Source: a virus. Taken from it: a stretch of 28,065 bases of DNA. Positions 128 through 24,616 of this stretch are shown one piece after another; the first letter of the stretch is position 1; the number at the start of each line of letters is the position of its first letter. The position numbers and the translations under genes were made by a program. The notes under the pieces are model-generated. The model did not search any database and was not told where the DNA came from. It was given only the letters and a program-made list of their open reading frames with translations. The stretch is from IMG/VR virus record IMGVR_UViG_3300023174_000529, positions 1 to 28,065 of that record; one strand, 5' to 3'.

Positions 128-2960
128 TGACACAGGCTTAAATGCAGCTTTATTCAGTATTGATAATTCAAGTCCTGTATTCAGAAAAGATTTAGCAGCA
201 AATATTCTTCCTGCAGCAGGTATTACACTAACAACTAGTGTTGCCAACATTACTAGTATTACTAGCTATTTATGGCAAAAGAATGGTGTAACTATTTCAG
301 GAGCTACAACTAGTAGTTATACTGTACCTATTAGTGATTACAGTTCTGTTAGTACTAATACTTATACTTGTACTGTAACAGGAACTATTAATGGTACAGC
401 CGGTAGTACTAGAAATGACTCAGTAGTAATTCCTAGACTAGATGACGGTAGTAGTACTCCAACAGCGGTATTGTCTAACAGCAACATTACTTTTGCTGGA
501 CCTAATACTACATACACGGGCATTACTTTTACATCTGGTAGTTGTGGTATTACAGCTTTCATTGGTTCTACACAATTAACTTATGCAGCTAGTGGTGCTA
601 GTACTTTTAGTGTAGCGTATGGTACAGCAACAGGAGTTACTGTAGCCGCTGGATCTGGTACTGGAAGTACTTATACAGTACCTGCACCCACTGCTATGAG
701 TGCAGATAGTGCTAGCTTAGTAGTTAATGTAACAATCAGAGATGGCAGTAATACAGCTACTGTAGTATCTAAAACAATCACTTATTCTCTTAGCAGAACT
801 GGTACTCAAGGGGCTGCTAGTACAGTACCAGGCCCAACAGGCGCACAAAATCATCGCATTTATATAGCAGGAACCAGTACCACTCCAACCACTCCAGGAA
901 CTACCACAAGCGGAGCTGCTCCTGCGGGTTGGTCACTGACCCCGGTAACCCTAGACACCACAAATAACACACAGTGGCAATCAGACGGTACAACTCCTGC
1001 AGGCAGTACTACCACTACTTGGGGTGCTCCTTATTTGAGTTATTTTCAAGTAGCCAAACTAAGTGCTATCACAGCCAACATTGGTAATTTAACCATAGAT
1101 AGTACTGGTAGTATAATTACTACAGGAGCAACTTATGGTGGTAGCGGAGTCTTTTTAGGTTACAATACTACTACTACTAGTGCTTATAAATTTTCAGTTG
1201 GTAGTGGCACTGCCACTAACACACTTACTTGGGATGGCACAACCTTAAAAGTACCTGCAGCTACTGTAACAGGTACATTAACAGCCTCGCAAATTGCTGC
1301 AAACGCCATTACTGCAAGTAAAATATCCGTAGGTGATTTTACAAATTTGGTAAAAAATCCTGCCTTTGATGGCGGATCTTCAGATGGTTGGACTTTAACG
1401 GCTACCAGCAGCATTTTAGCCAAAAGTGCCACAGAAGTTCCAGCCAACGCCCCCTCAGAATATGTAGTAAAAAATCCAGTAGTAGCCGGCACTAACAATG
1501 ACTGTGCAGTTACTCAAAGCTTTGACGTACGCCCAGGTGAAGTATATTACGTAGAGTGGTACGCTGCCTCCGGGACCACAACCACAGGATCTACTAGAAT
1601 ATTTTTACTAATAGCCGATCAAACGAATACTCAGTTTACATACCCCAGTGCTGCAAGCATTGCTGCAAGCAGTAGCTCTCCTTGGACTAAATATTCAGGA
1701 CAAATTACCATACCTGCTACAATTACAGGTTCCTATATACCTGCAAAAGCAACTATTGCTTTTGGTACTTTAGGTGGAACTACTAATACAGGTACTTGGT
1801 ACGTTACCAAAATAGTTGTACGTAGAGCTGCTACAAGTGAGCTGATAGTTGACGGAGCAATTACTGCTGCTAAACTTTCAGTAACTAATTTGAGTAGTAT
1901 TAATTCAGACTTAGGTACTGTAACTGCAGGCAGTATATCTGGTTCAAGTTTAACTATCAAATCCCGTAACTTATTAGGTTGCGGAGGTTTAGAAAAGCAG
2001 TCGGGTTGGAGCGCTATTGTAGGAAGTGTTAGTTATACTACTACTTTAAGTGGTGGAGGTGCTATAACAACTTCGGTATTAAGCTATAGTTGGTCTACAG
2101 CTGTAACACCTAAATTTGGTACTTGGAGTACTTTACCGTATGCAAGTATGCCCGTTTATACAGTAGGAACCACGTATACAGTTAGTTTTTATGCAAAATT
2201 AGGTGGCAATTACTCTGGCGGATTTATTATATCTGATACTGGAAATCCTTCCCACACAGTAACCACAGTAACTAATCCTACAATATCTTCTACTAGTTGG
2301 CAACGGTATGTTTATACTATTGTTTATAATTCTGCACTCGTCACTTACCCTTATTTGGTAATCACTGGAACTACTACTACCGGCAGCGTCGGAACTATTT
2401 ATTTTAGTAATTTTCAAGTTGAACAAGGTAGCGCAGTTACAGATTGGGTAGCAGGAGGAACCCCTGTTATTTATAGTACTGGAGTAATGAACGGGTCAGG
2501 AGCTGTATTAAATACTGATGGCACTTTTGCAATTGGAAATGCCGCAAGTAGTATTGTAAATACAGCCACTTCCGGTATAGTTGTAAATGGGCCTGTAGTT
2601 TTTACAGAAAATATTACTAATAATGGAACTAGTGTTGCTGCTGTTAATACCAGCACAGGAGCTAGTGTTTCAGTAACCGTAAGCGTACCGTCAGGTGCCA
2701 GCGCTGTACTACTAGACTGGTACTTAGGGCCCCCTACTCAAACCGCCGGTACAACATATGGCGGGGGTAAAGACGCTGTTTATACTAGTGGTTATATTAA
2801 CGGACCTATTCTAGTAAGTTTAACAGATAATACTGTTGCTTGTAGTGCTATTGTTATTTCTCCAAATAATACCACCGCCGCAGTTTCACATACTTATACA
2901 GTAACCAGAAGTTACTACACAGGAACAATGAGACTCTCAGTCTTAATACTAAAAAGATGA
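1..2960 (+). CDS. Large modular tail-tip or tail-fibre protein, 3' part (5' end outside window)
   Basis: This is the C-terminal 985 or so residues of a large virion protein, and the frame is open to the left edge. The ATG at 12 is internal, because the same sequence recurs in frame at 696. Ig-like modules fill the first 260 residues, one with a typical WQKNG...SYTV pattern. A short collagen-like linker (GPTGA) follows at about 277. Next is a region with LSAITANIGNLT, like the central-fibre part of lambda J-type host-specificity proteins. Two segments (NLVKNPAFDGG and RNLLGCGGLEKQ) resemble carbohydrate-binding jelly-roll modules, and the gene closes with a beta-rich C-terminus. Its place ahead of the fibre genes fits a tail-tip or receptor-contact role. 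Base use is AT-rich with many tact/agt codons. Family assignment is by pattern only. Confidence 0.75.
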   Translation, partial: PTAMSADSASLVVNVTIRDGSNTATVVSKTITYSLSRTGTQGDTGLNAALFSIDNSSPVFRKDLAANILPAAGITLTTSVANITSITSYLWQKNGVTISGATTSSYTVPISDYSSVSTNTYTCTVTGTINGTAGSTRNDSVVIPRLDDGSSTPTAVLSNSNITFAGPNTTYTGITFTSGSCGITAFIGSTQLTYAASGASTFSVAYGTATGVTVAAGSGTGSTYTVPAPTAMSADSASLVVNVTIRDGSNTATVVSKTITYSLSRTGTQGAASTVPGPTGAQNHRIYIAGTSTTPTTPGTTTSGAAPAGWSLTPVTLDTTNNTQWQSDGTTPAGSTTTTWGAPYLSYFQVAKLSAITANIGNLTIDSTGSIITTGATYGGSGVFLGYNTTTTSAYKFSVGSGTATNTLTWDGTTLKVPAATVTGTLTASQIAANAITASKISVGDFTNLVKNPAFDGGSSDGWTLTATSSILAKSATEVPANAPSEYVVKNPVVAGTNNDCAVTQSFDVRPGEVYYVEWYAASGTTTTGSTRIFLLIADQTNTQFTYPSAASIAASSSSPWTKYSGQITIPATITGSYIPAKATIAFGTLGGTTNTGTWYVTKIVVRRAATSELIVDGAITAAKLSVTNLSSINSDLGTVTAGSISGSSLTIKSRNLLGCGGLEKQSGWSAIVGSVSYTTTLSGGGAITTSVLSYSWSTAVTPKFGTWSTLPYASMPVYTVGTTYTVSFYAKLGGNYSGGFIISDTGNPSHTVTTVTNPTISSTSWQRYVYTIVYNSALVTYPYLVITGTTTTGSVGTIYFSNFQVEQGSAVTDWVAGGTPVIYSTGVMNGSGAVLNTDGTFAIGNAASSIVNTATSGIVVNGPVVFTENITNNGTSVAAVNTSTGASVSVTVSVPSGASAVLLDWYLGPPTQTAGTTYGGGKDAVYTSGYINGPILVSLTDNTVACSAIVISPNNTTAAVSHTYTVTRSYYTGTMRLSVLILKR
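685..811 (+). repeat. 127-bp perfect direct repeat, copy 2
   Basis: This is the second copy of the repeat at 1-127. After base 811 the two copies diverge: copy 1 runs into another Ig-like module and copy 2 runs into a GAASTV-PGPTG collagen-like linker. The repeat therefore ends exactly at a domain junction. Confidence 0.97.
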
Positions 2961-3343
2961 AACATTTTACCATTTATAATTCTCTTGGAGAAATTACCAG
3001 CAGTGGCCAAGTACAAGATGAAGATTTTGAATTACAAGTGCTTGTTCCCGGAGAGTACATCATTGAGGGGTACGCTGATCCTGAAAAGGACAGCATAGAC
3101 CCTAAAACCCAAACAGTAATACACGGAGGAAGGGTTGTAAAACCCTTTCCTCGTACTTACGCAGACAAGCGGCGTAGTTTATACCCCAATGCCATTGACC
3201 AACTGGACATGATTTGGCGGGCAATGGACTCAGGCAAGCTGCCCAAAGACAATGAGTTTTATACAACCATCAAACTCATAAAAGATCAGTATCCAAAAGA
3301 TCCTGCACCCCCTCTTAATCCATTAACTCCAAAAGGCCTTTGA
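2957..3343 (+). CDS. Small tail-associated protein with YADKRR...YP...DQLD motif
   Basis: This 128-aa protein is joined to the preceding tail gene by an ATGA overlap, suggesting coupled translation. Its N-terminal half is beta-rich (IYNSLGEITSSGQV). The C-terminal half has YADKRRSLYPNAIDQLDMIW, a pattern I know from small proteins encoded after phage tail-fibre genes, some called tail assembly or XkdW-like. It is probably a tail fibre accessory or chaperone, but no biochemical role can be read from the sequence. It ends in a proline-rich tail. Confidence 0.7.
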   Translation: MKHFTIYNSLGEITSSGQVQDEDFELQVLVPGEYIIEGYADPEKDSIDPKTQTVIHGGRVVKPFPRTYADKRRSLYPNAIDQLDMIWRAMDSGKLPKDNEFYTTIKLIKDQYPKDPAPPLNPLTPKGL

Positions 3344-3861
3344 TGATTAGACGTCAACATATGGGACAGGGTATTACAGAACCTGCCGAAGTATTCAATA
3401 TTGAGGGACTACGTATTGTTCGTACTAACTTTAAAGCCGGAGAATGGGTAACCACAAAAGTACCAGAAAAGTGCAGCTACCAAGACTGGGAAAGTGTACA
3501 CGTACATTTAAATGGTACATCCAGTGAAGTAAACAACGCACTGCCCAGTATCGGACACGGGTGGGTAAGTCGTCATGACGATTATGTAATGGAACCGGGT
3601 ATTTACAAACGCATATTTGATTCTCCAACAGAGTATTGGTGTTGTTTGTGGACAGATGAGCGAGGTTGTGAGGATGTGGAAGTAATTAAGCTACAAATCA
3701 ATGAAACTTATGAGTTACCACAAAATCAGACTGTGTTTGTGTTGAGTGGCACTGGTGTGATTAACTCCACAATTTTACAAGCTCATGAACCTGTAAAGTT
3801 AATTAGCGGTAGTGCTATTTTAACTGCAACTACTGAGCTTTATGCCCTTACGTGGCAGTAA
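3343..3861 (+). CDS. Hypothetical protein, beta-rich, tail region
   Basis: This 172-aa protein is unrecognised. The ATG at 3343 shares one base with the preceding TGA (TGATG) and has AAAGG six bases upstream, so I prefer it to the TTG at 3340. The protein is rich in charged and aromatic residues (EYWCCLWTDERGCEDVE). Its C-terminal part alternates short beta strands and may fold like a cupin, judging from a run such as VFVLSGTGVINS, but this is weak. Its position inside the tail array suggests a virion or assembly role. Confidence 0.7.
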   Translation: MIRRQHMGQGITEPAEVFNIEGLRIVRTNFKAGEWVTTKVPEKCSYQDWESVHVHLNGTSSEVNNALPSIGHGWVSRHDDYVMEPGIYKRIFDSPTEYWCCLWTDERGCEDVEVIKLQINETYELPQNQTVFVLSGTGVINSTILQAHEPVKLISGSAILTATTELYALTWQ

Positions 3862-3870
3862 AAGGATCCC

Positions 3871-4854
3871 ATGGCATTAAATAATTTACGCGTTGTTTAC
3901 AACAACCTAGCAGACTTATCTACTACTTCAGTAACTGCATCTAGTACTCAGTCTGGTAGTTCTTTAACAAATTTAAAATTAGACACAAAAGGTTTGGTGT
4001 GGAGAAGTGGCATCAACACAGCCTCTGCTACTTCTGTTACCGCTGTGTTATCCATAGACTTAGGTACAGCAACCTCGGTTAACAGCATAATTCTACCTTA
4101 TACAAATTTAACTTCCAGCACTGCTACTGTTGCAGTAACAGGTTATTCAGCTGCCCCAACTCTTGGAGGTACTATAGCAGCACCTACTATTACACCCAGC
4201 GGTACTGGTGCTATAGCGTATGCAGCAACTGATACTATACCCATTAATGCTGTTGGCGGCACAGTAACTTATGCTACTGTAACTACCAATTGCTGTCCTT
4301 GGAATAGCTTGAGTCTTAGTGCTTGGGGTACAAACCCTGCAGCTGCTAATACATACGCGTATGGTGGAGGCACTGCAGCAGTAGTGTGGCTAACTCCATC
4401 GATCAATAGCAGATACTTAACCATACACATAACAGATAACTTTGCCTCCAAAACTAACAGTTACATAGAGGTAAGCAGATTGATTTTGGGGTCATACTGG
4501 AGTCCTACGTACAATACAGGATACGGCATGACTGCAACACAGCATGACTTAAGTGCACATGACCGCACTGAAAGTGGTGATTTGATCACACAGCGTGGGC
4601 CCAGATTTAACTCTCTGAGTTTTCAATGCGACTTTTTAACTCCAGCAGACAGAAAAGAATTGACTAAAATAATGTTGGGCAACGGCCTTCCACGCCCGCT
4701 TTTCATTAGCCTATTCCCAAACAACGGCACTACTAGTACCTTGGCAGAAATGGAACGTGCACATCAAATTTACGGTAAATTAACTACCCTACCAGGCATC
4801 AGTTACCGCACTCTGGATATGTACAACACACAGTTTGACGTAGAAGAAGTCTAA
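3871..4854 (+). CDS. Tail protein with discoidin-like fold, probable distal tail or fibre component
   Basis: This 327-aa protein starts at an ATG preceded by AAAGGA. The N-terminal two thirds is beta-rich. A pattern of SIDLGTATSVNSIILPYTN, then RYLTIHITDN and YIEVSRLILG, is typical of F5/8 type C (discoidin-like) jelly rolls in phage tail proteins. The C-terminal third (RGPRFNSLSFQCDFLTPADRKEL) has the look of tail proteins whose last domain packs on the tail tube or hub. A structural tail role is likely; sugar binding is possible but unproven. Confidence 0.7.
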   Translation: MALNNLRVVYNNLADLSTTSVTASSTQSGSSLTNLKLDTKGLVWRSGINTASATSVTAVLSIDLGTATSVNSIILPYTNLTSSTATVAVTGYSAAPTLGGTIAAPTITPSGTGAIAYAATDTIPINAVGGTVTYATVTTNCCPWNSLSLSAWGTNPAAANTYAYGGGTAAVVWLTPSINSRYLTIHITDNFASKTNSYIEVSRLILGSYWSPTYNTGYGMTATQHDLSAHDRTESGDLITQRGPRFNSLSFQCDFLTPADRKELTKIMLGNGLPRPLFISLFPNNGTTSTLAEMERAHQIYGKLTTLPGISYRTLDMYNTQFDVEEV

Positions 4855-16677: not shown

Positions 16678-16680
16678 CAA

Positions 16681-16713
16681 AAAAGCCCTTGTGTTTGCGC
16701 ACAAGGGCTTTTT
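16681..16713 (+). terminator. Rho-independent terminator ending the late operon
   Basis: A perfect 13-bp stem pairs 16681-16693 (aaaagcccttgtg) with 16700-16712 across a 6-base loop (tttgcg), followed by a T-run. It starts four bases after the stop of the preceding gene. The A-run on the left side could also make it work on the minus strand, but no minus-strand gene precedes it. Confidence 0.95.
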
Positions 16714-16746
16714 CTCGTCCGAAATTTATAGCATAAAATTTTGGAG

Positions 16747-16775
16747 TTGATTTTATTTTGCACAAAGTATATAAT
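16747..16775 (+). promoter_or_regulatory. Sigma70-like promoter of the 16838-20027 unit
   Basis: TTGATT at 16747-16752 and TATAAT at 16770-16775 are 17 bases apart in an AT-rich 160-bp gap after the terminator. The first gene downstream begins at 16838 with AAAGGTG before it, giving a leader of about 55 bases. Confidence 0.75.
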
Positions 16776-16781
16776 ATACTT
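16765..16781 (+). promoter_or_regulatory. Perfect palindrome across the -10 box
   Basis: AAGTATAT-A-ATATACTT is an 8+8 perfect inverted repeat with a one-base centre, and it covers the TATAAT box. It may be an operator. An AT-rich palindrome of this size can also arise by chance in such a sequence, so confidence is modest. Confidence 0.45.
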
Positions 16782-16837
16782 ATATTGAAATTGGAGTAAA
16801 ATTTTTTACACTAAATTATTAAATTCAAAGGTGCCCT

Positions 16838-17398
16838 ATGTTTCAACCTCAAATGCCTTTTCCAACACCGTTTATAGGGCCCATGCAGTCTCAAATGTTA
16901 GGCCCACTTCAACAATCTCAGAGTCTTGGTGGATTCGGCACATTTGAACCATTTGGATTTTTAGGTCCAGGCAATGACACCATAAATGTTATAAGTTCTG
17001 GACCTGGTCCGCAAGGCCCCACAGGGCCCGCAGGACCGACTGGCCTTACCGGACCAACAGGTTCTGGAATAGTGGGACCTACCGGACCCACAGGACCAAC
17101 AGGCTCGCCGGGCACTCCAGGCATAGTGCCTGTTACTCAAGTAAATGCCACACCTTACACAGCTTTATCAACAGACTATGTGTTGGCAGTTTCGGTAGCC
17201 GCACCAGCAAACATCATATTACCTGTTAGCCCGTTAGGAACTGTGTTTGTTGTAAAAGATTCAGACGGCGATGCACAAACTAATCCTATCACTGTAACAG
17301 CCAGCACAACCATTGATGGAGCTGCAAGTTATGTGATTAATGTCAATTATGCTAGCATCACTCTTGTGTTTACGGGCACAGAGTGGAATGTAATTTAA
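16838..17398 (+). CDS. Collagen-like fibre protein, first gene of separate unit
   Basis: This 186-aa protein has AAAGGTG before the ATG. Residues 1-48 are rich in Pro, Gln, Phe and Met (PQMPFPTPFIGPMQSQML) and unlike any leader of the other fibres. Residues 54-100 are Gly-X-Y repeats. Residues 106-186 form a beta domain (YTALSTDYVLAVS, then NIILP, then VFVVKDSDGD) ending ITLVFTGTEWNVI. The same domain ends the next protein. It is probably a short trimeric fibre with a globular head; where it sits on the virion is unknown. Confidence 0.75.
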   Translation: MFQPQMPFPTPFIGPMQSQMLGPLQQSQSLGGFGTFEPFGFLGPGNDTINVISSGPGPQGPTGPAGPTGLTGPTGSGIVGPTGPTGPTGSPGTPGIVPVTQVNATPYTALSTDYVLAVSVAAPANIILPVSPLGTVFVVKDSDGDAQTNPITVTASTTIDGAASYVINVNYASITLVFTGTEWNVI

Positions 17399-17407
17399 AG
17401 GAAAACC

Positions 17408-17950
17408 ATGGCTTATAATACCCCCTTAGCTTCCAAAACCGGTTTCGGTGTTGTAGAAGTCGGCACAAACATTGATGTTCTGGCTGGTGTAATTGACCTG
17501 CCCCAAAGCGTAGCCACAACAGCTAACCCAACATTTGCAACAGTAACCAGCACAGGTGCTGTTACTGACTCTGGTAATCGTGTAATTACTACCCTAACAG
17601 CTGGTACCAACATCACAATTACAGGTACTGCTCCTTCACTAACTATTAACGCTACTTCAACTCCTGTGGTACCTACTAGATTAGTAGCTGTTTCAGGTCC
17701 CATTCTAACCACAGACTACTACATTGGTGTAATTGCAGTTGCTCCGGTAACTCTTACCCTACCTGCTGGTGTAGCTGGTGATTCTTACGTTGTAAAATCT
17801 GAATTTGGTAACTTAGCCGATGTAACAGTTGTAGGAAACTTATTAAATACAGTAGAAGGTATTGCCAGCCCTGCAGGTTTTGTGCTTGCTTTTGCTTCAA
17901 ATGCATCAGCTACCTTCGTCTTCCGTGGAACTAACTGGAATGTAGTGTAA
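17408..17950 (+). CDS. Fibre-like protein sharing the C-terminal module of its neighbour
   Basis: This 180-aa protein has AAAGGAA before the ATG. Residues 1-85 are a beta shaft with motifs seen in phage fibres (GFGVVEVGTNIDV, then NPTFATVTSTGAV and TAGTNITITG). Residues 92-180 match the last domain of the preceding protein in order and spacing: LTTDYYIGVIAVAPVTLTLP, then DSYVVKSE, then ATFVFRGTNWNVV. The two genes appear to be a partial duplication with different shafts, collagen in one and beta in the other. Confidence 0.72.
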   Translation: MAYNTPLASKTGFGVVEVGTNIDVLAGVIDLPQSVATTANPTFATVTSTGAVTDSGNRVITTLTAGTNITITGTAPSLTINATSTPVVPTRLVAVSGPILTTDYYIGVIAVAPVTLTLPAGVAGDSYVVKSEFGNLADVTVVGNLLNTVEGIASPAGFVLAFASNASATFVFRGTNWNVV

Positions 17951-18558
17951 TGGCTTACACAAAACCAACAGCTACTACCTTGGCAGGCGTAGCTTTAAAA
18001 CAAACTCCTGCTCCAGTTGTAAATGCCATAGTGCCTGTGGTACTAGACGCAGAAATTGCCAGCGCAACACAACTGGGTGTAGTTAAGGTTGGCAGTGGAA
18101 TCTCAGTGGATGGCTCAGGAACAATTTCTGCAAGTGGAGCTGATTGTTGCCCTGAAGTAGGCAACTGGACTCCCAGCATATTGCCCAGTGTTCCAGGCGT
18201 AATCTCATTAAATATTAAAACTGCTCGTTATGTAAAGTCCAGCAATTTAGTAACCTGCACTTTTGATGTAACTATAACTTCCATAACAGGCGGTAGTAAT
18301 TCCGCAACTCTTAAACTTTCAGGATTACCTTTTAGTTCTGAAAGTAGCACAGGGTACGTTGGTGTTGTGTTAATCGGTTATTTTACCGACATGAACACTA
18401 ACACTAATTATATATCTGGTTCAGTAATATCAACCAGTACACAAGGCGATTTATGGTTCCAAAAAGAACCTAATAAATCACTAACAAAGCTAACTCAAGC
18501 AGACGTAAAGATCAATACTCGTTTAGTAGGCACTGTACAGTACTTGAGTGCTGCATAA
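17950..18558 (+). CDS. Fibre-like protein, third of the separate unit
   Basis: This 202-aa protein has its ATG sharing one base with the preceding TAA (TAATG). Residues 35-65 carry IASATQLGVVKVGSGISVDG, a short beta unit frequent in tail fibres. Residues 70-200 form a beta-rich domain (NWTPSILPSVPGV, TARYVKSSNLVTCTFDVTIT, ATLKLSGLPF) that resembles a jelly-roll head common at phage fibre ends. It does not share the WNVI/WNVV end of its two neighbours. Function is probably adhesion, by inference. Confidence 0.7.
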   Translation: MAYTKPTATTLAGVALKQTPAPVVNAIVPVVLDAEIASATQLGVVKVGSGISVDGSGTISASGADCCPEVGNWTPSILPSVPGVISLNIKTARYVKSSNLVTCTFDVTITSITGGSNSATLKLSGLPFSSESSTGYVGVVLIGYFTDMNTNTNYISGSVISTSTQGDLWFQKEPNKSLTKLTQADVKINTRLVGTVQYLSAA

Positions 18559-18577
18559 CTCTCAGCAAGGAACAACG

Positions 18578-19765
18578 ATGTGGTCATTAAAAGAATCAAT
18601 GGGCGGCGTTACTAACCGGGTTACTATACCAACAGATGGTATGATCTTGGTAAGTATGCAACCTGCCACAACAAAAGTCTCCGCGTACATCAACGATCAA
18701 GAGGCTAAACCTTTGGATCGACTATATGGAAGAGCAGGCGATGTTGTTTATTTTGAAATTAAAGGATCACGTGAATCGGATTCTACTGTTAATATACAGT
18801 ATGGCGATAGCACGAGTACCCTACAAGTGGCTCAACGTCCTCCAAAAGAAGACGTTGCGATAAGTGAACCAAGTGCCTATGATGGCACAGGAATCAATCA
18901 AGGAAATATCATGAATCCAAACGATACAGTAAATTTATTTGCTAACCCAGGCATGGGCATGGGTGGAGCACTAGGCGGCGGTCTAGGAGCTGGTTTAGTA
19001 GGCGGCCTTTTAGGCACTGCACTATTTGGCCGCAGAGGCTTAGACGGTCTTGGGGGTGATGTCGGTGCGCCAGCAACACTACAGGGCGTTGAATCAGTTG
19101 TTAACAATGCTGCGATTATGTCGCAACTTGCAGATGTTAAAGCAGCTATTCCCCTAGCAGAGTCACAAGTTCAACTAGCACTAGCCGGTGCTCAAATGGA
19201 CTTAAACAATTCAATTGCACAAAGCACAGCCTCAACTGGTAACATTGTACGTAATGTCAATGACCAAGTAATGGCTAACCTAAACATGCAAACTCAGATG
19301 AATCAAAAAGGATTCTCTGATACTGCAGCTGTTGTAACAGCACAAGGTACAACTAATCTATTAGCAACTAAAGACGCAGCAACTCAAGCTCTACAAAGCT
19401 CATGGCTGCTAAATCAAGCTATTACAAATGACGGCGACAAGACTCGTGCTTTAATCCAGTCAATTGACAAAACCAACGATTCACGCCTAATTACCAACCT
19501 AGCCAACGAAGTAACTGAACTACGCAATGAAGGTCGTCTACGTGGCGTTGAGGGTAACATCACCATCAGCAACACCAACACTGCTCAAGCCGTAGCTCAG
19601 CAACAACAAGCTCAGCAACAAGCTCAGCAATTAGCTATTCTAGGTGCTCAGCTACAAGCTCTGTACCAGCAAAATCAACACATCCAACAAGGTGTTCTAA
19701 ACATTGGCTCTGGCACTGTGTCAGGTAACTCACAAACTGCTGCTAACACTCGCGTAAACCAGTAA
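18578..19765 (+). CDS. Unrecognised protein: beta N-domain, glycine-rich hydrophobic stretch, long helical tail
   Basis: This is a 395-aa protein. ATG at 18578 has AAGGAA nine bases upstream; the open frame back to 18548 overlaps the preceding gene and lacks a site. Residues 1-85 are beta-rich. Residues 125-160 are glycine-rich and hydrophobic (GMGMGGALGGGLGAGLVGG at 125-143, then LLGTALFG), able to enter a membrane. Residues 165-350 look alpha-helical with LADVKAAIPLAESQVQLALA and many Asn/Gln/Ala. Residues 350-390 are Gln-rich. A virion protein that meets the membrane, or an internal ejection protein, is possible; no family is recognised. Confidence 0.7.
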   Translation: MWSLKESMGGVTNRVTIPTDGMILVSMQPATTKVSAYINDQEAKPLDRLYGRAGDVVYFEIKGSRESDSTVNIQYGDSTSTLQVAQRPPKEDVAISEPSAYDGTGINQGNIMNPNDTVNLFANPGMGMGGALGGGLGAGLVGGLLGTALFGRRGLDGLGGDVGAPATLQGVESVVNNAAIMSQLADVKAAIPLAESQVQLALAGAQMDLNNSIAQSTASTGNIVRNVNDQVMANLNMQTQMNQKGFSDTAAVVTAQGTTNLLATKDAATQALQSSWLLNQAITNDGDKTRALIQSIDKTNDSRLITNLANEVTELRNEGRLRGVEGNITISNTNTAQAVAQQQQAQQQAQQLAILGAQLQALYQQNQHIQQGVLNIGSGTVSGNSQTAANTRVNQ

Positions 19766-19766
19766 T

Positions 19767-20027
19767 ATGCTCGCTGATCTATTAAAAGTTATCACTCCCG
19801 AAATGCTGGTACACGCTGTTCGCAGTAACCCAGTTGCCGTGCTAAGTGCTCTTCAGAAGTTTGATACGTATGTTTCTTTTGGGCAAGCCTTAACTGTAGA
19901 TCAGCAAGTTTGCTTGTCTATGAACTTAAACAAAGTAAACGACTTTTTACGTAGCGAACAAGGAAAGACTTCACTGTCTATGTTAGCTGAAGAATTTGTA
20001 GCTTATGTAAAAGAACATACCAAGTAA
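19767..20027 (+). CDS. Hypothetical small helical protein
   Basis: This 86-aa protein has its ATG two bases after the preceding stop, so it is probably co-translated. It is mostly helical (MLADLLKVITPEMLVHAVRS, then LSMLAEEFVAYVKEH) and weakly acidic, with no membrane span. It closes the unit before the bidirectional terminator. It may be a chaperone or partner for the 395-aa protein, but this is only inferred from adjacency. Confidence 0.6.
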   Translation: MLADLLKVITPEMLVHAVRSNPVAVLSALQKFDTYVSFGQALTVDQQVCLSMNLNKVNDFLRSEQGKTSLSMLAEEFVAYVKEHTK

Positions 20028-20033
20028 GCAGTA

Positions 20034-20068
20034 AAAAGCCCCTTAACCAGTACAGTTAAGGGGCTTTT
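20034..20068. terminator. Bidirectional terminator between convergent operons
   Basis: A perfect 14-bp stem pairs 20034-20047 (aaaagccccttaac) with 20055-20068 across a 7-base loop. T-runs follow on the plus strand (to 20073) and A-runs precede it, giving a T-run on the minus strand. It lies between the plus gene ending at 20027 and the minus gene ending at 20072, so it serves both. Confidence 0.95.
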
Positions 20069-20071
20069 CTT

Positions 20072-20278
20072 TTACTTGAAATTGTCGATACGTTCAGCCA
20101 GTATGCTACAATACTGTCCCATAATGGTGTACTGCATGCTTAAACGCCGGTATTCTTCAATACCCATCTGGTCTACTTGTTCTTGTGTGGCATCGCCTAG
20201 AAACTTTCCTAGCTTAAGCCACCGAACATAAAGCTCATCATGTTCTTCGACTACGCGTTGTTGATATGGCAGCATCAT
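20072..20278 (-). CDS. Small helical phage protein (crAss001_48-like pattern)
   Basis: This 68-aa protein shares ATGA with the ribonucleotide reductase stop, so it is translationally coupled. The plan LPYQQRVVEEHDEL, about 25 residues of linker, then RLSMQYTIMGQYCSILAERIDNF is a helix pair found in many phages next to DNA-metabolism genes. I associate it with the crAss001_48-related family, from memory only. Function is unknown. It is the last gene of its operon. Confidence 0.7.
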   Translation of the reverse strand: MMLPYQQRVVEEHDELYVRWLKLGKFLGDATQEQVDQMGIEEYRRLSMQYTIMGQYCSILAERIDNFK

Positions 20279-22131
20279 ACGATCTCACAAGCTCCACCAG
20301 CACAGGCTAATTCAGCAGCCAAGTCAATCTGATTGCCGTCCAGCTCGAACACTTTGGAAATGTCCACGGATTCCAACAGTGGAAGCAGCTCTAAGTACTG
20401 CTGTTCAGTAATGTCTTCAAAAGGTAGTTGAGGATATGCTTCGGCACCAAAGTAAGGCAGCACAGAAATACCGTTGTAGTGATCACGGTTTTGCCACATC
20501 CATGCGCCTAGCTCAGCCCACTCACCGTCCTTTACAGAAATAGTGCACGATACATTGTGTTGATTAACGCCGTCTTGGTGACCTGGAGCAACCCAGTTCT
20601 GACTTACGTTCTTTACACGATCAAGCAAGCTCCGCATTGACTCTGTGCGTATTTTAGCACCTACTGGAGCACGCTGAGGAAAGCTGAGCACAACTTGATG
20701 TGGAACCATTACATCTTGTTCTACAAGTCCAGGAGCTGCTTTCATCATGTACTGAGCTAAGGCTTCATCCTTGCCTGCACGCATACGACGAATGTAAAAG
20801 TCAGCATGCCAAGCGTGAATGCCTGAACTGGTTCCTAGTACTAGACTAGTAGTGCCGGCTGGTTTAACACAAGTGGTACGTGCTGCAGGATTGATGCCGA
20901 TTTGAGCTGCAATGTCTGCATTGGTTTCTTTAACACACTCAGCGGCCCAAGTCATGTCTAGCTTTTCCACAAAACCGCTAGCAATGCCGGTCATTGACAC
21001 GCCTAAGAGCGCGTCTTTTTCACAAGCCAGTTTCCACTTGGGGTTTAGATAGTGAAAGTCTGTGTAACCTGCTTGTAGTGTACCAATAAACGCTGCTGCA
21101 GATGCTGCTTCATTTAGTTCACGTTGAGTGCGTGTTGCATCTGCATTGATTTCTGTTAAGTTACACAACTGGTAAGGACGTAGTGCAATCTCAACACAAG
21201 GATTAGTACCCCAGTCTTTGTTGTTGGTCCAGTACACACCAGGCTCACCGCAGCCAGATTCTTTGATCCTGGTCATTAACTCGGCAAACTCTTGCTCCGA
21301 CACTTCACCACGAGGCAGCACAGCACTATTATTGGCACGAGCACGAGCAGGGTGGGAAACCCACCACTCACCGGCTTTGCAGGTAAGCATGGCTTCATCG
21401 TCACGATCGAAAAGGCAGATCATAGCAGCGCGTCGGATACCGCCGGCCAGCACAGCATCAGCAATAATGCAAGCCATGTCGTGTACTTCCACAGGCTCTA
21501 GGTGACGGCCCACAGCTGCACGCAAGATCACAATTAAACGCTCAATGCAAATACGTAGTGGCTCTGGTCCTGGAGCCTGACCGCCTGTGGTGATTAGTTC
21601 TGCGCCTTTTTCACGAATATCACGGTAGTCAAAAATGGGCAAGGTACCAGCACTAAAGAATGCTTTGCACACAACCTTAACAGCGTCACTCCAACCTACG
21701 ATTGAGTCTTGTACTTGATACTTGTACTCTTGATCTGATTCAGGAGTTTTGATCTTTGGTAGTTTACCTACGTGTCGACGCTGTACTGAGTAGCCCATGC
21801 CTGTGCCGCCTAGTAACAGGAACATCAGCTCGCTGAAAAACTTGGTTGACTCTGCGGGCGCGTAGGCACAGTTGAAGATGCGGTTTTCGGCCATCAAAAT
21901 AGGACGTCCACCGAATTGCAGTGAGCGCATTGAGGGCAGTACCCGTTTAGTATGCACAAACTTGTTGTAGATCCGATCAATCTGCAGAGCCATGTGAGGA
22001 TATTTGGCTTTGTGCATGTCTGAGTTGCGAGTTACAATCTCAGTCCAGTTTTCACGCCGATTGTGGTCATGATTGAATCTGGCGTATTTGTTAAATACGG
22101 TAATATCTGATAGTGCTTGTTTATCGTTCAT
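20275..22131 (-). CDS. nrdJ: Adenosylcobalamin-dependent (class II) ribonucleotide reductase, monomeric type
   Basis: The product is 618 aa; ATG at 22131 overlaps the dUTPase stop (TAATG) and AGGGAA lies just upstream, so a start at 22185 is rejected. It reduces ribonucleotides to deoxyribonucleotides with a B12 radical. Visible residues are C88 (NCAYAP), N310, C312 and E314 (NPCVEI), the second active-site C323 (YQLCN), and the C-terminal redox pair C610 and C615 (CAGGAC) that is reduced by thioredoxin or glutaredoxin. This arrangement is like the monomeric Lactobacillus enzyme, which is longer (about 740). There is no sign of an intein or an NrdB partner. The cell must supply cobalamin. Confidence 0.9.
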   Translation of the reverse strand: MNDKQALSDITVFNKYARFNHDHNRRENWTEIVTRNSDMHKAKYPHMALQIDRIYNKFVHTKRVLPSMRSLQFGGRPILMAENRIFNCAYAPAESTKFFSELMFLLLGGTGMGYSVQRRHVGKLPKIKTPESDQEYKYQVQDSIVGWSDAVKVVCKAFFSAGTLPIFDYRDIREKGAELITTGGQAPGPEPLRICIERLIVILRAAVGRHLEPVEVHDMACIIADAVLAGGIRRAAMICLFDRDDEAMLTCKAGEWWVSHPARARANNSAVLPRGEVSEQEFAELMTRIKESGCGEPGVYWTNNKDWGTNPCVEIALRPYQLCNLTEINADATRTQRELNEAASAAAFIGTLQAGYTDFHYLNPKWKLACEKDALLGVSMTGIASGFVEKLDMTWAAECVKETNADIAAQIGINPAARTTCVKPAGTTSLVLGTSSGIHAWHADFYIRRMRAGKDEALAQYMMKAAPGLVEQDVMVPHQVVLSFPQRAPVGAKIRTESMRSLLDRVKNVSQNWVAPGHQDGVNQHNVSCTISVKDGEWAELGAWMWQNRDHYNGISVLPYFGAEAYPQLPFEDITEQQYLELLPLLESVDISKVFELDGNQIDLAAELACAGGACEIV

Positions 22132-22577
22132 TATAGTTTCCCTGTGCTTCCAAATCCACCAACACCGCGTTGGGTGTCGTTCCATGTTTCGTCATCTTGA
22201 TATCGTACCAGTACGTCTGGTAATGCAACTGGTACAATGACTAGCTGAACAATGCGTTCATTTTGTTCAATTGTGCCTGTAGCTTCTGTGCCCCAGTATA
22301 CTAAGCTAGCCATAATTTCGCCACGGTAGTCTGAGTCAATGATGCCAACACTGTTAGTCATGGCAATGTCGCGTTTGCTCAAAGAACTGCGAGGTACCAG
22401 TAATCCTACGTATCCTGCTGGAATCTTAACTTGTACTCCTGTGCCAACCAGAGTACGTTTTCCCACTTCTAGGTGTACTGTGTTTTTACTACGTAAGTCC
22501 AGTCCCGCGTCTGTGGGATTGGCTCGTGTAGGTTCTAGCTCTGAGCGTTCCAACCGCACTTGTAATTCATTTACCAT
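22131..22577 (-). CDS. dut: dUTPase (deoxyuridine triphosphatase)
   Basis: This 148-aa protein is the trimeric type. All five motifs are present in order: AGLDL (24-28), PRSSLS (62-67), GIIDSDYRGEI (78-88), ERIVQLVI (107-114) and the P-loop-like RGVGGFGSTG (137-146). It converts dUTP to dUMP, lowering uracil in DNA and feeding dTMP synthesis. The start overlaps the exonuclease end by 11 bases and the stop overlaps the reductase start by one. Confidence 0.95.
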   Translation of the reverse strand: MVNELQVRLERSELEPTRANPTDAGLDLRSKNTVHLEVGKRTLVGTGVQVKIPAGYVGLLVPRSSLSKRDIAMTNSVGIIDSDYRGEIMASLVYWGTEATGTIEQNERIVQLVIVPVALPDVLVRYQDDETWNDTQRGVGGFGSTGKL

Positions 22578-23473: not shown

Positions 23474-23922
23474 GCAATAAATTTTGGTTGTTCGTGTTGC
23501 AAGAAATCTTCTAGCAACGCAGTGTATAGTTCAAAGCCTTCTACGTTGATGAACATGTACCGGTAGTTGGCTGTGGGCATAGTCTCGTAGGCTGCAAAAG
23601 CTTTGCTGCGATCATACTTGTAGATCAAGAGCGGTGTTTTTGAAACCTGGACTCCTTGACGAACAGCTTGACGCCACCATTCTATTAGTTGAGGATTTTT
23701 GCCGGTTAATAAAGCACTGGTAAGATGATCATCTTTGTAGTGCTTTACTTCCACACAGTAGTAGTTTTTCTCATTGGGTACGTATAGGTCACCTTTTAAG
23801 CCATGCTTTTCATTTAAAGCACCTGAACCAGGTGTACGCTCCCACTGCAATCCTGTGTGTTTTCGCAGTAAATCACGTACTACAGTTTCAGCACGTGCTC
23901 CTTTGTCTCGTGAATCAACCAC
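23470..23922 (-). CDS. PD-(D/E)XK-type nuclease, possible Holliday-junction resolvase
   Basis: This 150-aa protein starts at GTG (23922), eight bases inside the end of the homing endonuclease gene. Visible features are E12 in KGARAETVVRDLL, D45 in GDLYV, and E58 and K60 in CVEVKHY, with PGSGA between. This is the pattern of small PD-(D/E)XK nucleases, including Hjc/RecU-type resolvases. Beside the SbcCD-like pair a recombination role is likely. An AGGA lies about 13 bases upstream of the GTG, so initiation is probably weak or coupled. Confidence 0.75.
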   Translation of the reverse strand: MVDSRDKGARAETVVRDLLRKHTGLQWERTPGSGALNEKHGLKGDLYVPNEKNYYCVEVKHYKDDHLTSALLTGKNPQLIEWWRQAVRQGVQVSKTPLLIYKYDRSKAFAAYETMPTANYRYMFINVEGFELYTALLEDFLQHEQPKFIA

Positions 23923-24616
23923 AATATATTTTCCATCCTTTATGTTGTTTTTCCTTGCCTTTTAGTACCTGTATTACATGAGCATTATTAAGCCCATGTT
24001 TTTTAGAAAATTGACTACAGTTTTCTACTGTGTACACAATACCTTCTGGAGAAACTAAATTAGGATAGTTATTATTCTTATCTGCAAGGGTTTTATTTTT
24101 TCCAAAACGTAAAACAGTACTTCTAGTTTTAAGTAGTAAGTACTGTTCAGGAAAAAGGTCTTCTAACCATTTTCTAGGTTTAGAAGATAGGCTATCTATT
24201 GTATCTTTACTTACCCCTGTTATTTTAGATATTTCTAGAAATGTTAGCTCAGGCTTATTAACAAGTAGAAGAAAAGCCTCTATTATCTGATCATTAGTAT
24301 ATTTTGCATTTATATCTTGTCCAAACAATTCATGCCCACCCCCAGGTATTTTGCAAGAATTAAACCCGTCTGTAACAGAATTAAACTCAGATATTAGACA
24401 TTCTTCTTCATAGTCTAGTAGACTCTTATCACATACCTTTAAAATATGTATACTAGGTATTCCGTAAGTATTAAAAGCTTTTTGTAACTTTTTTGCGTGT
24501 ATATTTCTACGTGCTTTAGATATATGTATTTGGTACCTATTCTCAATATCTATTGATTGACCTATATATACCTTATCGGTACCTTTAAATTCAAGTAAAT
24601 ATATTCCACATGTCAT
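23915..24616 (-). CDS. Free-standing GIY-YIG homing endonuclease
   Basis: This 233-aa protein has the motif GIY at 4-6, YIG at 17-19, R27 in IENRYQIH, the catalytic Glu at 70-72 (LDYEEECLI) and Asn at 79. Residues 107-145 are a helix-turn-helix-like stretch (LTFLEISKITGVSKDTIDS). Residues 188-232 are a NUMOD-type DNA-binding repeat (LVSPEGIVYTVENCSQFSKKHGL, ending KGWKI). Such genes cut an allele lacking them and spread by repair. It begins two bases after the SbcC-like stop. Its AT content is clearly higher than that of the genes around it. It is not an intron: both flanking genes read through as separate frames. Confidence 0.9.
   Translation of the reverse strand: MTCGIYLLEFKGTDKVYIGQSIDIENRYQIHISKARRNIHAKKLQKAFNTYGIPSIHILKVCDKSLLDYEEECLISEFNSVTDGFNSCKIPGGGHELFGQDINAKYTNDQIIEAFLLLVNKPELTFLEISKITGVSKDTIDSLSSKPRKWLEDLFPEQYLLLKTRSTVLRFGKNKTLADKNNNYPNLVSPEGIVYTVENCSQFSKKHGLNNAHVIQVLKGKEKQHKGWKIYCG

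Follow-up and report, generated by a model that had tools for sequence, protein, structure and literature searches.

Genes and signals at the locus

The window, a virus contig of 28,065 bases from IMG/VR, contains a block of five open reading frames (g1 to g5), all of which are real genes that are conserved in relatives. The block is preceded by a promoter and enclosed by two hairpins.

16679-16714, both strands: bidirectional hairpin terminator between the upstream PhoH/g0 genes and the unit
16747-16775, + strand: sigma70-type promoter TTGATT-17-TATAAT, with the lead-in AATTTTGG from 16737; conserved in relatives
16838-17398, + strand: g1, 186 aa, collagen-like fibre protein
17408-17950, + strand: g2, 180 aa, short fibre protein with a shaft motif followed by a C-terminal gp9/XD1-type domain
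17950-18558, + strand: g3, 202 aa, short fibre protein with a shaft motif and a C-terminal domain unlike that of g2
18578-19765, + strand: g4, 395 aa, core protein, ATG start
19767-20027, + strand: g5, 86 aa, small core partner of g4
20034-20068, both strands: bidirectional hairpin terminator between g5 and the opposite-strand 68-aa ORF and RNR genes

As the original prediction had proposed, the unit stands apart from the main tail array, from which it is separated by glycosyltransferase, holin, endolysin and PhoH genes together with two hairpins. The wider arrangement was examined in G001, a 93.8-kb near-complete relative that contains L004 and encodes a g4 protein 93% identical to that of the window. 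Its late region, where genes were called from sequence appearance and homology with the window, comprises TerL, portal, head, a 2,340-aa tape measure, tail fibres, glycosyltransferase, holin, endolysin, PhoH and then the unit, while RNR, dUTPase, exonuclease and SbcCD genes follow on the 3' side in the opposite orientation. The unit is therefore the far end of the late region, past the lysis genes and PhoH. No nucleotide match to the window was found in the phage collection, and a literature search returned neither a paper on phage KLER1-1 nor an account of the g1-g5 unit.

Several features of the surrounding DNA were also observed. The RNR beside the unit (window 20275-22185) is replaced at the same place by a very different RNR (24-37% identity) in L005, L008 and L010, and PhoH is still 65-96% identical in the relatives with the swapped gene. 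A low-GC GIY-YIG gene at 23915-24616 (Pfam 3.3e-6), probably a homing endonuclease, lies between SbcC and a PDDEXK gene, and another ORF occupies this site in G001. The 982-aa ORF at 12-2960 has an internal repeat in which MSADSASLVVNVTIRDGSNTATVVSKTITYSLSRTGTQG is present twice. In L011, an inserted gene for a 619-aa DUF1996 protein (2890-4749, Pfam 1.1e-46) separates PhoH from the unit.

Promoter and terminators

Both flanking hairpins are far stronger than expected from shuffled sequences and can act on either strand, which bears out the strong upstream terminator and the bidirectional downstream terminator of the original prediction. The upstream hairpin has a folding energy of -22.3 (+) and -23.6 (-) kcal/mol with z about -5.2 relative to shuffles, and the downstream one has -21.6 (+) and -24.7 (-) kcal/mol with z of -4.1/-5.4, a strength equalled by none of 200 shuffles. 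A hairpin upstream of the promoter was found in all six relatives inspected, and the hairpin that closes the operon was found at the same place in seven of seven.

The predicted promoter is not significant as a match alone, since 14 promoter-like sites occur compared with 9.1 +/- 3.0 in shuffles, though it recurs in relatives. A TTGAnn-17-TATAAT element with a lead-in close to AATTTTGG was found 5' of the first fibre gene in 6/6 relatives inspected (L004, L005, L006, L008, L010, L012), with one or two bases of the lead-in differing in the more distant ones. The lead-in element with TTGA is present at a single site in the window and likewise at a single site in G001. With its promoter and flanking hairpins recurring in this manner, the block is a self-contained transcription unit, as had been claimed. 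Upstream of distant g4 genes, the average promoter score was not raised (p=0.23); strong promoter matches were commoner there (17% vs 7%, p=0.013). The timing of expression was not read from the promoter because the same hexamers with 16-18 nt spacing precede both early genes and the tape-measure gene in G001.

The fibre proteins g1, g2 and g3

Three fibre-like proteins had been predicted and all three were recovered, g1 by its Gly-X-Y repeats, and g2 and g3 by short fibre-shaft motifs. The g1 protein has a Pro/Gln-rich N-terminus followed by about twelve Gly-X-Y triplets with one interruption. It matches the Pfam Collagen model with E=2.7e-4 at 21.1 bits, under the cut-off of 27.2, and many tail-fibre PHROGs with E down to 1e-10; a Gly-X-Y tract in a fibre context, by which collagen-like phage fibres are recognized, is thus present in g1. 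Collagen-like proteins are also encoded in this phage's main tail array.

The C-terminus of g1 and g2 is a common beta domain, a beta-sandwich of the T4 gp9/TSP4-XD1 type. An AlphaFold2 monomer model of g2 is confident for residues about 98-180 only, and the gp9/XD1-type domain spans residues 89-180. Structural comparison with VIA gave Z scores of 11.2 for CBA120 TSP4 (87 residues, 1.9 A), 11.0 for the Klebsiella phage KP1 baseplate, 10.4 for T4 gp9 and 9.2 for the T4 baseplate, with the TSP4 and gp9 alignments extending over 87-88 residues at 1.9-2.6 A. The scores for these structures, and that for the Pa223 capsid spike (8.3), are well above those of unrelated entries. An independent sequence profile search of g2 also matched TSP4 (E=3.6e-4). 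The TSP4 residues matched, 81-175, lie inside XD1. The same fold was assigned to the g1 C-terminus because it is homologous to g2. The original prediction that none of the proteins carries a known tail-anchor domain stands, yet it did not recognize this fold at the ends of g1 and g2. For g3, matches were obtained to phrog_29288 (E=3e-7) and to the tail fibre family phrog_27381 (E=0.01), and a g3 profile found nothing credible among PDB sequences.

The g4 protein

The start of g4 is placed at an ATG preceded by AAGGA, and the initial residues MW are conserved; an upstream GTG would yield 405 aa. The predicted structure begins with an N-terminal beta domain (residues 1-90, pLDDT about 95) that is at best Ig-like, continues through a Gly-rich disordered stretch into a single helix of about 190 residues (176-368), and ends in a disordered tail. 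The original description of the 395-aa protein is borne out for the hydrophobic Gly-rich segment (about 126-150) and the long helix; it had missed the Ig-like N-domain. Fold matches of this domain are weak, with no Foldseek E under 0.001 and VIA Z up to 7.8, and no function was derived from them.

Conservation across the family covers the Gly-rich segment, the helix motifs (DG-TRALI) and the C-terminal tail, and the N-terminus is variable. The hydrophobic segment is Gly-zipper-like throughout, and given its hydrophobicity it may insert into a membrane. The highest hydropathy over 19 residues is 1.55 for the g4 of the window and 1.47 on average for the family, and the usual limit for a membrane helix is 1.6.

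Database searches gave a match between g4 and phrog_9288 (unknown function, E=5e-4), no Pfam or NCBIfam model for the g4-g5 family, and no credible match of the g4 profile to PDB sequences. Pfam and NCBIfam matches of 55 g4 members were scattered single ones and were taken as chance.

Spread of the g4-g5 pair

Relatives of g4 were found at 108 places in IMG/VR and in enterobacterial genomes and prophages, with only five records among 50,697 phages. Searches of E. coli genomes (at the DNA level) and of plasmids found no counterpart of the g4 gene of L102. The pair is carried by the cultured Iodobacter phage phiPLPE (gp38/gp39) and Acinetobacter phage At2, and by a Lelliottia prophage. Both g4 and g5 are present in 11 of 11 near relatives, while the fibre set varies. 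Eight near relatives were used to build a g5 profile, which matched eleven further ORFs when run on 5,681 ORFs (E<1e-5). Five of these follow g4 by no more than 50 nt on its own strand, five are on the opposite strand within 200 nt downstream, and the remaining one is located 1.7 kb downstream, behind fibre genes. The family found beside g4 has in common a C-terminal motif of about 45 residues; g5 has no match in phages, and its PDB matches are at chance level only.

Mostly, g4 begins its own unit, with a median upstream gap of 137 nt vs 10 nt and an opposite-strand upstream neighbour in 22 of 53 cases vs 20%. The places occupied by the core are diverse. The pair directly follows NinG and antiterminator Q in the G164 prophage, lies between Q and endolysin on the opposite strand in the G011 prophage, follows the tailspike genes in the P22-like G006 and follows the last tail gene in the P2-like G007. 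Among virulent or unclassified phages, the order is portal-g4-g5-scaffold-major head protein in L039, g4-TerS-TerL-portal in L034 and TerL-g4 in L123, and phiPLPE carries a g4 homologue between its major capsid and neck genes. An own promoter and terminator, varied insertion places and occurrence in unrelated phages are among the features by which a phage moron is recognized, and these were found. The block is an independent, portable operon.

Two neighbouring genes were seen in enterobacterial prophages or remnants. A Tlde1-type gene (Pfam 3.4e-31) is located near the g4-g5 pair in L113 (7843-8277), and a gene resembling it by eye is near the pair in L101 (10367-10846).

Linkage and exchange of fibre genes

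Collagen-like ORFs are linked to g4. In 56 distant loci, 15 of 209 neighbours within two genes of g4 are collagen-like compared with 0 of 844 elsewhere (p=2e-11, related loci being not fully independent). On the g4 tree, the members linked to collagen are placed in two or more clearly separate groups, with support of 100 for the group of the window and 91 for the L042/L074/L092 group, and at least four changes of linkage state are forced on strongly supported branches. Strong g2 relatives (E<1e-16) lie beside g4 in nine out of nine cases, these being the ones whose contig extends far enough upstream; weak domain-only g2 matches are not linked to g4. The genes are thus not scattered in relatives; scattering would have spoken against the predicted unit.

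A fixed order of five genes, for which a search in other phages had been suggested, was rejected as the fibre genes vary among relatives in number, type and position, being placed either before g4 or between g4 and g5. L119 and L124 have the block in the reverse orientation, flanked by the same RNR and PhoH neighbours. The swapped fibre types include 187-aa proteins that are C1q-like by eye with no Pfam match, 100-aa proteins with weak gp9/10 matches and, in L011, a fibre with Collagen (7.5e-16) and a BclA_C-like knob (1.9e-5, under the cut-off). Fibre genes are also exchanged between cores. The g2 protein is 81-86% identical to that of the window in L026, L047, L119, L121 and L122, where the g4 of L026 belongs to the same lineage as that of the window, the g4 cores of L119 and L121 are about 36-43% alike to it and L047 has no match. 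Like fibre genes are therefore coupled with two separated g4 lineages.

Some fibre operons also contain genes of other kinds. An Fe/Mn superoxide dismutase gene (Pfam E=2e-18) is found within the fibre operon of L010 (2923-3438), and a ferritin-like, Dps-resembling gene ends the operon in L074 (2861-3301, Pfam Ferritin 1.8e-11) and in L124 (5273-5713).

Proposed function and alternative explanations

The g4-g5 pair is a conserved protein pair without an earlier description that travels with exchangeable collagen-like fibres. With about even confidence, we propose that the window carries a portable, moron-like operon for an accessory adhesive fibre, most likely on the virion, in which g4 provides the stalk or anchor. 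The g1, g2 and g3 proteins would form short homotrimeric fibres with collagen or beta shafts, tipped by the gp9/XD1-type domain in g1 and g2 and by another knob in g3. The long helix of g4 could make a helical coiled-coil stalk or anchor of roughly 28 nm in complex with the fibres, and the assembly might dock through its conserved helix start and C-terminal tail while the variable N-domain would point to partners or surroundings. A role for g5 as the dedicated assembly partner of g4 is suggested, and the single host-type promoter with two terminators would allow the block to be expressed and moved as a unit. The original interpretation is supported in part; among its readings of a head fibre, an ejection protein or an adhesive coat, the ejection protein is the least supported.

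The virion location is the main doubt in this proposal, since a core that has spread like a moron among phages with unrelated virions also fits a host-side role. A virion appendage is favoured by the g4 homologues within or beside the head modules of several phages (L039, L034, L123 and phiPLPE). Against it, the phiPLPE record marks gp34, gp35 and gp63 as confirmed by MS and leaves the g4 homologue gp38 unmarked, and the core is shared by lambdoid, P22-like and P2-like prophages whose virions are unrelated. In these prophages it often has no collagen gene next to it, and in some cases the late genes are on the other strand.

A tentative extension, given less confidence, is that the g4-g5 pair serves as a portable, general-purpose display platform, in which an anchor made of coiled-coil and its partner jump between unrelated phages and recruit whichever fibres are exchanged among the local ones. 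The carriers would be both lytic and temperate, long- and short-tailed phages, and the fibres would be of the collagen, gp9/XD1 or C1q-like kind. If so, unrelated virions (or infected cells) would carry the same interchangeable adhesins.

Somewhat unlikely, in our estimate, is that the g4-g5 core is a moron directed at the host, such as an envelope protein that changes the cell surface or excludes other phages. The Gly-rich segment of g4 would then lie in a membrane with the helix in either the periplasm or the cytoplasm, and any fibres present would decorate the infected cell or merely ride along. The moron-like places in temperate phages of three body plans (G164, G011, G006 and G007), the frequent occurrence of g4 as its own unit and the family-wide Gly-zipper-like segment are all consistent with this explanation. 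However, several branches of the g4 family are tightly linked to collagen and fibre genes, the hydropathy of the segment stays under the membrane-helix limit, and the window phage shows no lysogeny gene and looks strictly lytic.

Ordinary accessory tail fibres are a clearly unlikely alternative, in which the g1 and g2 gp9/XD1-type domains would attach to the baseplate or tail tip and g4 and g5 would serve only as coiled-coil assembly chaperones. The fold is indeed best known from baseplates and tailspike complexes (PMC8825819), and the collagen-like proteins of the main tail array would also fit. Nevertheless, the unit is uncoupled from that array, g4 occurs across phages with unrelated tails, and XD1 in TSP4 and gp9 is described as a spacer and not an anchor (PMC8825819), and here the domain is C-terminal. 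Finally, an internal head or ejection protein that enters the host envelope during DNA entry is highly improbable for g4, as the Gly-rich hydrophobic segment, the long helix and a weak Pfam match of one of 55 members to SctB, a type III translocon protein (E=4.9e-4, a single match among the 55 proteins scanned), are set against a P22-like host prophage that already encodes its own DNA-transfer protein, long-tailed phages of this set that would need no short-tail ejection proteins, and co-operonic fibre genes for which this explanation does not account.

Only a minority of the appendages of environmental phages have been identified, and searches for fibres are usually confined to the tail gene array. 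The g4-g5 family offers a sequence handle that marks fibre operons elsewhere in the genome, with fibre genes exchanged between phages independently of the tail. With products on the virion, the family would represent an adhesin module that is mobile; with products acting in the host, it would be a widespread undescribed moron.

Comparison with known systems

None of the described systems matches the unit, as the original prediction had stated, and membership of known head-fibre or decoration families, such as those of phi29 gp8.5, SPP1 gp12 and Hoc, cannot be claimed. The closest relationship is in the fold of the g2 C-domain (and of g1 by homology), which is that of T4 gp9 and the XD1 of CBA120 TSP4. 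XD1 is a gp9-like domain to which a spacer role is ascribed within a branched complex of trimeric tailspikes, and the fold is also found in the glycan-binding modules of two secreted metalloproteases (PMC8825819). In g1 and g2, by contrast, it is found at the end of a short protein of the collagen or shaft kind, and the anchor domain, the XD2/XD3 pair and the catalytic body of TSP4 are absent. The Pa223 capsid spike (PDB 9ny6) is a weaker structural match to the g2 C-domain (Z 8.3, 85 residues) with 7% identity, and a sequence-level relationship was not found.

Collagen-containing appendages provide further comparisons. The side tail fibres EPclA-D of E. coli prophages combine collagen with coiled-coil (PMC3368898), but g1-g4 gave no match to their PfN and PfC domains. 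BclA-type trimers of collagen with a C1q/TNF-like knob are resembled by the fibre of L011, whose genes are phage genes, while such a knob was not seen in g1-g3 of the window. The SPP1 gp12 capsid spike is collagen-like, predicted to be trimeric, accessory and involved in host adhesion (PMC7602432); g1 differs by its extra C-terminal domain and a dedicated partner operon.

The head fibre gp8.5 of phi29 is a trimeric coiled-coil appendage that is thought to help attachment (PMC7602432). A beta-tulip base like that of gp8.5 is not among the matches of the g4 N-domain, which are weak and to Ig-like folds only, and the likeness of phi29 gp8.5 to the proposed unit is an analogy in how the two would work.
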